A stretch of DNA of 64,000 nt, taken from assembly GCA_902594915.1 (NCBI GenBank), contig CACJOA010000002.1, positions 1-64,000 on the forward strand. The letters are read 5' to 3'. Under the pieces are notes generated by a model. It was not told where the DNA came from. It was given only the letters and a program-made list of their open reading frames with translations, and made no database searches. Origin of the DNA: an uncultured Pelagibacteraceae bacterium (GTDB taxonomy: Bacteria; Pseudomonadota; Alphaproteobacteria; Pelagibacterales; Pelagibacteraceae). Made by a program: the position numbers and the translations under genes. Shown here piece by piece: positions 26,365-33,403 of this stretch (position 1 is the stretch's first letter; each line of letters begins with the position of its first letter).

Positions 26365-26817
26365 ATGGAAAGTTTAAAAAAATGGATGCAAGATTCAGCT
26401 AATATTCTATTTGACGATAGTAAGAATGATCTAAGATCATTGCCAAAAGCAGTCAGATTACAAATCTTACTTGTTTTAAGTTTTATTTGGACAACTGTTT
26501 TTAGTTTATATGTTTTCTCTTATACCACTTTTGCTTTTGGATGGGCTGGCACATACATAGCTCACATTGGGCTAATATTTGCAGTTTATACAACATTTAA
26601 ACAATTTCATAAAGCAGAGGAAAAATCGAGCAGCGTTTTTCAAACGAGAAATTTTGACCCTTTCAAGATTATGGTGATAGTTTTTGTAATTGTATTCATT
26701 TTTGTTTTTTCAAAAGGAATTGAAGTTTTAACAAATACCAATTCATACACTATTCCTTATGAAGGCCCATCTAAATCAGTATTTGAAAAATGGCTACCGT
26801 TTAGTAAAGATAAATAA
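26365..26817 (+). CDS. Hypothetical membrane protein
   Basis: 150 aa ORF with three TM-like segments. Confidence 0.65.
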   Translation: MESLKKWMQDSANILFDDSKNDLRSLPKAVRLQILLVLSFIWTTVFSLYVFSYTTFAFGWAGTYIAHIGLIFAVYTTFKQFHKAEEKSSSVFQTRNFDPFKIMVIVFVIVFIFVFSKGIEVLTNTNSYTIPYEGPSKSVFEKWLPFSKDK

Positions 26818-27197
26818 TGGAAAAAATAACGAAAAATTTACAACTCCTTTTAATGTGTATTATTTTAATAAGCACTGTAATTGCAGTAGGAATAGAAATG
26901 TATAAAATGTTTCAAAATCGATCAGTTACATTAGCTGACCTACTTTTAATGTTTCTTTATTTAGAAGTTCTGGCAATGGTAAGAGTTTTTTGGAATCAAC
27001 AGTCAATAAGTATTACATTACCTCTTTTAATAGCGATTACAGCGTTAGCGCGATTTATTATTCTTCAAGGAAAGGAAATGGATCCAAGTGCATTGGTCTA
27101 TGAAGCAGTCGCAATAGTTCTAATTGCTGCAGCAATAGTAATCTTAAGACTAAGACATAGTGATAAATTAGGTCTTAAGAAAAAAAAATCAAAATAA
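26817..27197 (+). CDS. PsiE-like membrane protein
   Basis: Four-TM pattern; LLLMFLYLEVLAMVRVFW resembles the phosphate-starvation-inducible PsiE family. Confidence 0.7.
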   Translation: MEKITKNLQLLLMCIILISTVIAVGIEMYKMFQNRSVTLADLLLMFLYLEVLAMVRVFWNQQSISITLPLLIAITALARFIILQGKEMDPSALVYEAVAIVLIAAAIVILRLRHSDKLGLKKKKSK

Positions 27198-27203
27198 TTT
27201 TTA

Positions 27204-28337
27204 ATGAATTTTGAACCCTCAAGGTCCAAGGCCTTAAATCGACTAGAAAGTTTTGTTGAAAATAATCTTGCAGAATATTCAAAGCTTAGAAATTTTGATT
27301 TTGGTCCAAAAAAAAGATCAAATGTTTCTTGTTTATCTCCGTATATCACTCATGGAATTATTAATGAACAAGAGATTATTAAAAAATCTCTTGGTAAATT
27401 TTCTTTTTCAAAAAATGAAAAATTTATACAAGAAGTCTTATGGCGTACATATTGGAAGGGCTGGCTGGAATTAAGACCAAATGTTTGGTCAGATTATTTG
27501 ATAGAATTAAATAAAATCAGTGGAGATTTTCAAAACAATCAGAATTACATTAATGCTTTAGAGGGAAAAACTAACATTGAATGCTTTAATACATGGGTAA
27601 ATGAGCTAAAGGAAAACAACTATTTACATAATCACACAAGAATGTGGTTTGCTAGTATTTGGATTTTTACCTTAGAATTACCTTGGCAATTAGGTGCAGA
27701 ATTTTTTATGCAACATCTTTATGACGGCGATGCTGCATCCAATACTCTTGGATGGAGATGGGTTGCTGGAGTCCAAACACAAGGAAAACATTATTTAGCA
27801 AGTGAATGGAATATAAAAAAATTTACTAATAATAGATTTAATAATGTTAAATTAAATGAAAATGCTCCTCCAAAAGTATCTGAAAAAACTTACCAAATCA
27901 TAAAAAAAGATTTTAATAATCCACAAAATATAGAAGATAAAAATCTATTAATTTTTGAAAATAATCTCTCTTTTGAAATCACTGATTTTCAAAAAAATAA
28001 ATTTAAAAAAATTTATTTAATTTTTAATAAAAATAGATCTATCAAAGTTAGTGAAAAGGTAGTGAAATTTAAATCCTTATTAGTCGAAGACCAAGAACAA
28101 AGGTTAAAAACTAATTCAATTGATTGTGAGGTCATAGACATAAGTGACATTAAAAAAATTGAAAATTGTTGTGCTTTATATCCAACAGTGGGTGAAAACT
28201 TAGATTATTTGAATTCAAATAATTTAAAAATAGACTTTTTATATAGAAAACTTGATCAATATTCTTGGCAATATTGTAATAAAGGTTTTTTTAATTTTAA
28301 AAGTTATATTCCTAAAATAATTTCAACCTTTAATTAA
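27204..28337 (+). CDS. Photolyase/cryptochrome FAD-binding-domain protein with unusual C-terminal domain
   Basis: CLSPYITHGIIN, VLWRTYWKGW, NNYLHNHTRMWFASIW, DGDAASNTLGWRWVAG; no N-terminal antenna domain. Confidence 0.85.
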   Translation: MNFEPSRSKALNRLESFVENNLAEYSKLRNFDFGPKKRSNVSCLSPYITHGIINEQEIIKKSLGKFSFSKNEKFIQEVLWRTYWKGWLELRPNVWSDYLIELNKISGDFQNNQNYINALEGKTNIECFNTWVNELKENNYLHNHTRMWFASIWIFTLELPWQLGAEFFMQHLYDGDAASNTLGWRWVAGVQTQGKHYLASEWNIKKFTNNRFNNVKLNENAPPKVSEKTYQIIKKDFNNPQNIEDKNLLIFENNLSFEITDFQKNKFKKIYLIFNKNRSIKVSEKVVKFKSLLVEDQEQRLKTNSIDCEVIDISDIKKIENCCALYPTVGENLDYLNSNNLKIDFLYRKLDQYSWQYCNKGFFNFKSYIPKIISTFN

Positions 28338-31785: not shown

Positions 31786-31913
31786 ATTTTTTTGCTAGAA
31801 CATCTTTTTGAGCAATACTTAACTCTTTCCCAATTTAACTTCCATTTTTTTCGCCATGTAAAAGGTCTTTTACAAATAATGCAGAATTTAATGGGAAGGT
31901 TTTCTTTTTTCAC
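31782..31913 (-). CDS. DUF2256-like small zinc-binding protein (43 aa, GTG start), not in the ORF track
   Basis: [43 protein letters not shown]; CxxC...CxxxC; shares boundaries with both neighbouring genes. Confidence 0.85.
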
Positions 31914-33403
31914 TAAAGTGTGTTTTGTTTAATAAATTTTTCCGCAGCAGGAAGAATTAATTTTTTTCTATCACTTTTCATTTTGTCGAAAATTCTAACC
32001 ATCATCGATAACCTAGGGTTTTTCAAAAAAAATTTTCTATTTCTATCAATGAATCTCCAATACAACCCATCCATTATATTACACCAATCACCTTTCTTAA
32101 AATCCATCATTTTCATAAAATAACTAGAGCCACAAATATATGGTTTCGTGGCAAATATTCCTCCATCACTAAATAAACCCATACCATAAACATTAGGTAC
32201 CATTACCCAATCTGAGGAGTCTACAAACATCTCCATAAACCATTTATAAACAATGGTAGGTTTTATTTCACAAAGATTCATAATATTAGATAAAATCATT
32301 AATCTCTCAATATGATGAGACCATCCATGATTTAAAGCATTTTTGACTGCATAATCTAGTGGGGGTAAACCAGTTGTACCTTCGTACCATGACTTTTTCA
32401 TTTTACGATTTTGTTTAAAAAAGTTTCCAATTTCCATTTCATTCGAATAATTTTGATAAATTCCTCTCATAAATTCTCTCCATCCTATAACCTGACGCAC
32501 ATAACCCTCTAAAGAATTTAATTTGATTTTTTTACTTTTATGGAAATCTAAAACTTTTTTTATAATAAATTCAGGCGTGATTAAACCTAAGTTAATATAA
32601 GGACTTAAAGCACTGTGAAATAAAATATTATCTTTTTGATCAACTGCGTCCTCATAGTCACCAAATAAATTAGATTTTTCTTTAATGAAAAAATTTAATA
32701 ATTTGACTACATCATTATATTCTGTAGCAAGCCAAAAGTTTTTGGTTGTTCCTGGATGATCTTTGAATAGTTTTTCAATAATAGGTTTTAATTTTTTAGT
32801 GTGATTAGTCTCATTAATTTTTGGAAACTTTGGAATAGAGATATTTTTTGGCAACTTATTTCTATTATCTTCATCAAAACTCCATTTACCTCCTATAGGA
32901 TTTCCATCAGAACCTATTAATATGCCGGATTTTTTTCTAACTTCTTTATAAAAAGTTGCCATGAAAGGTTTTTTTGATTTTGATAAATATTTTTTAAATT
33001 CATCTCTCGAATTTAAAAACATGGGAGTTTGTACAATATTCCATTTAATTTTTTCTTTTTTTATAAATTGATTAATTTTTTTTTCAAAAAATTTATCCTC
33101 AATTTCAAAACTCGAAATCTCTTTTATTTTCTTAGAATTAATAAATTTCTTTAATTTTTTTGTATAGTCGTCTTTAAATTCTTTATCCTCAATTCTAAAG
33201 TATTCTAGTTTGAACTTATCTTTTTTAAGAGTTTCAGCATGTGAACGCATCGATGATAAGAAGAGAAGGATTTTATTTTTATGATGTTTTTCATAAGTGC
33301 ATAATTCGTAATCTTCCGCCATAAAAAATAGGTGGTCTTTTTTGAAGCGGTCCAAGTATTTTGGTGGAAATAATTGATTTCCCAGTATAAAAAATAACTT
33401 CAT
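31913..33403 (-). CDS. Cryptochrome/photolyase-related protein (FeS-BCP/prokaryotic 6-4 photolyase family)
   Basis: [75 protein letters not shown]. Confidence 0.9.

Follow-up and report, generated by a model that had tools for sequence, protein, structure and literature searches.

The gene at positions 27204..28337 on the forward strand of the window, by which we mean the whole stretch of 64,000 nucleotides analyzed here from an uncultured Pelagibacteraceae bacterium, most probably encodes a SAR11 member of the NewPHL class, a light-driven cyclobutane pyrimidine dimer (CPD) photolyase with an inverted domain order. We put the probability of this reading at roughly 0.88. The inverted order is real and well supported, and it is not new. 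We file the protein with the NewPHLs on the strength of its architecture, residues, taxonomy, and phylogeny, the assayed NewPHLs, such as those of Dinoroseobacter shibae and Methylobacterium mesophilicum, being known here by description; CPD repair and a preference for single-stranded DNA are predicted by analogy with the characterized members.

Results

The open reading frame starts at an ATG at 27204, its stop codon ends at 28337, and the product has 377 residues. It comprises an N-terminal FAD/catalytic domain (residues 3-209, 27210..27830, forward strand), an extended interdomain linker with a block pLDDT of 90 or more (residues 210-246, 27831..27941, forward strand), and a C-terminal antenna-like alpha/beta domain or "Z-domain" (residues 247-377, 27942..28334, forward strand). 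Pfam recognized only FAD_binding_7 in the 377-residue protein (E 7e-17, residues 74-198), and in comparisons with NCBIfam and PDB sequences, the counterpart of residues 3-209 was the stretch ~204-415 of classical photolyases and DASH cryptochromes. The photolyase signatures that the first-pass annotation had placed near the N terminus, namely LSPYITHG from L44, NNYLHNHTRMWFASIW, and DGDAASNTLGWRWVAG, are all present. The first residues of the chain thus already belong to what is the catalytic half of a photolyase; since residue 3 aligns with residue ~204 of the class I enzymes, there is no N-terminal alpha/beta antenna domain, which again agrees with that annotation.

Directly upstream, on the same strand, lies a gene for a PsiE-family membrane protein (26817..27197, forward strand), with 6 nt between its end at 27197 and the photolyase ATG, as had been noted. 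A psiE-family gene was seen in 80 of 100 SAR11 loci, and in 79 of those 80 it sat immediately before the photolyase gene in the same orientation. The two genes are probable operon neighbors in SAR11, any functional link between them being hypothetical.

An AlphaFold2 model of the full-length protein built with 41 sequences was confident (pLDDT 95.3, pTM 0.92). The alternating beta/alpha character suspected for the C-terminal region is borne out by this model, in which strands at residues 247-251, 269-274, 308-312, 322-325, and 344-346 are separated by helices. The region is ordered rather than unstructured (mean pLDDT 95.3), and the isolated domain was also modeled confidently (pLDDT 92). These ~130 C-terminal residues are conserved in full-length alphaproteobacterial relatives, which share a family motif near the end of the domain, R-x-x-D...KGFFxFKxxIPKI. 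In SAR11, the C-terminal domain is under purifying selection, with a median dN/dS of about 0.19 as compared to 0.10 for the FAD domain. One SAR11 genome (G044:C7:27154-28294) gave a match in two pieces, with the break within the C-terminal domain and a stop codon in the second piece.

In combination, profile comparison with controls, intermediate families, and Foldseek show a relationship between the C-terminal domain and the antenna domain, which in other photolyases comes before the FAD domain. The explanation that had to be weighed against this is that an unrelated Rossmann-like domain, for example of the universal-stress-protein type, was recruited independently and that its likeness to an antenna domain is convergent. 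Single-sequence searches join the domain to no family, HMMER against Pfam and the PDB giving nothing convincing, which counts in favor of independent recruitment. When the isolated domain was compared with the PDB by Foldseek, E-values were weak throughout and UspA-like entries ranked first, which also speaks for recruitment; we therefore judged these matches by TM-score and probability and took them as supporting evidence only. On those measures, the photolyase antenna domains are favored. Among the 50 matches listed, the highest TM-scores belonged to three antenna-bearing bacterial (6-4) photolyases, CryB (0.60), PhrB (0.57), and SePhrB (0.54), each with a probability of 0.98-0.99, in line with the comparison to antenna domains that the first-pass annotation had proposed; the best other match was a universal stress protein with a TM-score of 0.46.

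Profile comparison weighed further against recruitment. A profile of 57 C-terminal domains aligned collinearly with the N-terminal domain of the bacterial (6-4) photolyases (P 5e-5) with a score of 33.9, above the highest values reached by 300 column shuffles (22.2) and by 309 real protein families used as decoys (23.8). The C-terminal domain also matched the separate small subunit encoded beside genes of the short photolyase-like (SPL) type (P 8e-6 to 1e-4), and the small-subunit profile in turn matched the class I antenna domain from end to end (P 1e-9 to 7e-11; scores 61-68, with a shuffled maximum of 23). The C-terminal domain is thereby tied to the class I antenna through intermediates, the SPL small subunits, with the (6-4) photolyase domain as a further link. 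Compared directly by hhalign, the domain and the class I antenna domains gave no significant alignment, and the register was partly off; this negative result means little, because accepted homologs, the class I and (6-4) antenna domains, also miss each other in that test (P 0.08-0.12 only). Given these links, and given that the related SPLs carry an antenna-type domain in the same place, we regard independent recruitment as very improbable.

In fold as well as in sequence, the FAD domain matches class I photolyases. It retains the equivalents of Escherichia coli photolyase residues Y222, E274, W277, N341, M345, W359, N378, W382, and W384, whose roles in that enzyme are well established. Across 45 relatives, the positions corresponding to Y222, E274, W277, N341, R344, M345, D372, D374, N378, and W384 (E. 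coli literature numbering) showed little or no variation. Two members of the electron-transfer triad, W359 and W382, have counterparts here, and the third, W306, has none; W161 and W184 of the SAR11 protein are invariant, while the W306 position is occupied by D108, and tryptophan is not among the commonest residues there in the 45 relatives. From this pattern of residues, the protein is predicted to be a CPD photolyase with a tryptophan dyad.

Some members of the photolyase family are receptors, and the evolution of the C-terminal domain is quicker than that of the FAD domain; a blue-light signaling cryptochrome, with the FAD domain as light sensor and an effector or partner-binding module at the C terminus, would fit both facts. 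Against such a receptor, the class I CPD-contact residues examined are all conserved (the equivalents of M345 and W384 among them), the C-terminal domain resembles an antenna rather than a known output domain, and no signaling gene was found among the SAR11 neighbors checked. We consider a signaling role very unlikely, and the earlier suggestion of a new effector domain on a light or FAD sensor is not supported.

In a tree of FAD domains, the SAR11-type family was monophyletic (100/99) and lay outside class I. It shared one clade with the SPLs (92/100), in a tree whose bootstrap is not fully settled and in which two rows have long branches. Full-length relatives (E below 1e-100) occurred in 91 of the 147 sampled genomes of the order: 70 of 76 in the same genus, 15 of 18 in the other genera of the family, and 6 of 53 in the order's other family, so that about 85 of 94 sampled genomes of the organism's own SAR11 family have one. 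This spread, together with the full-length relatives in many other alphaproteobacteria, argues that the open reading frame is not a chance one. In a sample of 299 Pseudomonadota genomes, every full-length match listed came from Alphaproteobacteria, and relatives from Ruegeria, Novosphingobium, and Niveispirillum aligned over nearly the whole length. No relatives were found in a scan of viral contigs, a phage collection gave no match covering over 80% of the query, and the good matches in BFVD were viral photolyases only. On plasmids of Ruegeria, Peteryoungia, and Asticcacaulis (L203, L204, L206), the inverted photolyase gene adjoins or lies near a gene of the AarF/UbiB kinase family. Relatives on plasmids carry no annotation beyond "FAD-binding domain-containing protein".

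The first-pass annotation had presented the architecture as possibly novel. It belongs to an already characterized class, the NewPHLs, which includes Phr7 of Prochlorococcus (PMC13274461, PMC9426592, PMC8948257), and by that annotation's own criterion the published class rules out novelty. As PMC13274461 relates the work of Emmerich et al. (2020, NAR 48:12845), NewPHLs have an inverted topology and repair CPDs in single-stranded DNA. The papers that cite this work describe them as CPD photolyases that act specifically on single strands and combine an N-terminal FAD domain with a C-terminal "Z-domain" and a tryptophan dyad; members are characterized in alphaproteobacteria. Phr7 likewise consists of an N-terminal FAD domain and a C-terminal Z-domain (PMC9426592), and a "mere Trp dyad" is reported for the NewPHL of Dinoroseobacter (D. 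shibae) (PMC8948257).

Every NewPHL feature that was tested is present in the SAR11 protein. It shares with NewPHL and Phr7 an N-terminal FAD domain without an N-terminal antenna, a C-terminal Z-domain, a tryptophan dyad, and alphaproteobacterial affiliation; it differs in being an uncharacterized homolog, and no difference in architecture was found. The Fe-S cysteines are absent, as is stated for Phr7: the CxxC...C motif of SPL group B is missing from the SAR11 protein. Its PDB sequence matches named no NewPHL, the best of them reaching only about 60 bits.

The other classes fit less well. Class I CPD photolyases share the FAD-domain residues for FAD and CPD binding but have an N-terminal antenna domain, a full tryptophan triad, and a longer C-terminal helical part, and the SAR11 protein does not have their order of antenna followed by FAD domain. 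A class I CPD photolyase is also encoded in this genome (G000:C10, L081). The prokaryotic (6-4) photolyases (FeS-BCP, such as CryB and PhrB) supply in their N-terminal domain the nearest solved fold by TM-score among the 50 matches listed, but in these enzymes the antenna domain comes first, the lesions are (6-4) lesions, and an Fe-S cluster is mostly present. The SPL class of Xu et al. (2021), as outlined in PMC9178010 and PMC9649867, is short and lacks an antenna domain. The SAR11 protein, having a C-terminal alpha/beta domain, is not a strict SPL. SPL FAD genes encode about 224-289 residues, several with the cysteine motif, and their alpha/beta domain is a separate gene or part of a Deinococcus-type fusion; once the adjacent antenna-type gene is counted, the domain order is the same. 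We group Phr4/Phr5 of Synechococcus and Phr6 of Cyanobium (PMC9426592) with the SPLs, which share a clade with the SAR11-type family in the FAD-domain tree.

All eight SPL-type genes found in alphaproteobacteria had a small separate open reading frame for an alpha/beta domain directly behind them. Separate antenna-domain frames in this position behind SPL-type genes lie at L180:4699-5118, L181:4639-5100, L139:2105-2536, L141:975-1406, L179:3531-3926, L135:1028-1423, and L268:2666-3187. Among the weak Pfam matches of these separate frames, DNA_photolyase was the only recurring family. In Deinococcus sp. QL22, the SPL gene and the small gene overlap, the second being annotated as "hypothetical protein", and in Deinococcus sp. 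AJ005 and D. wulumuqiensis, both parts form one protein. Searched alone, the C-terminal part of the AJ005 fusion matched Pfam DNA_photolyase with an E-value of 4e-5, just under Pfam's cut-off. A fused form is found in Persicobacter too. In marine Synechococcus, the adjacent genes phr4 and phr5 encode the two domains in reversed order, and in two strains of Cyanobium they are joined into a single gene, phr6 (PMC9426592).

Gene order in these split relatives suggests that the inverted arrangement arose by fusion of adjacent genes, FAD then alpha/beta, rather than by strict circular permutation. Of the earlier proposal of a circularly permuted or re-fused photolyase, an antenna-related domain following the FAD domain is what stands; a strict permutation is the less likely route.

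On the strand opposite to the NewPHL gene and about 3.6 kb from it, the window carries a gene for a prokaryotic (6-4) photolyase family protein with a DPRP domain (31913-33403, reverse strand). Four cysteine columns, conserved in 24 of 29 aligned homologs, are missing from this protein, which, judged from its sequence, is probably without an Fe-S cluster, an absence that is reported for PromaPL of Prochlorococcus as well. A relative of the (6-4)-type gene was present within the fetched flanks in 81 of 100 SAR11 loci. As in SAR11, the inverted photolyase gene has a (6-4) photolyase family gene nearby in two alphaproteobacteria from outside that group, within about 2 kb in one (G181:C1) and 7 kb in the other (G249:C4).

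Discussion

As a NewPHL, the SAR11 protein would hold FAD in its N-terminal domain. Blue or UV-A light would excite the reduced flavin, an electron would pass to the cyclobutane pyrimidine dimer, and the dimer would split, with E77, W80, N143, M147, and W186 taking the active-site places of the class I enzymes. Re-reduction of FAD could proceed via a two-tryptophan chain, W184 and W161. The C-terminal domain is probably packed on its N-terminal partner and closes off the flavin pocket, whether or not a second chromophore is bound; the abstract of the original NewPHL study reportedly describes the FAD site as sealed by the C-terminal domain.

The SPLs seen here, in Alphaproteobacteria and Deinococcus, do not lack an antenna domain but are split, a result that in part widens the published phr4/phr5 case. 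We lean, if only a little, toward a wider reading, in which SPLs are one subunit of two-gene photolyases and the gene behind them, overlapping or abutting theirs, supplies the antenna-type domain, the NewPHLs and the Deinococcus fusions being the joined form. The phr4/phr5 split is already published, and in the literature that we searched, a link from it to the SPLs was not found; if the wider reading is true, the extension to SPLs in general would be new. These split genes bear on the published view that SPLs preserve the form of the first photolyase and are primitive antenna-less ancestors of the photolyase/cryptochrome family. If SPLs are indeed subunits, the antenna-less state would be an effect of gene boundaries, and a tree rooted on SPLs would lose its main argument.

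For SAR11, the value of the finding is mostly one of annotation. The gene is widespread in Pelagibacteraceae, which are among the most numerous cells of sunlit seawater. By analogy, naming it a NewPHL suggests that SAR11 bacteria may carry out CPD photorepair in single-stranded DNA beside a class I enzyme and a (6-4)-type enzyme, probably free of an Fe-S cluster, encoded in the same genome.
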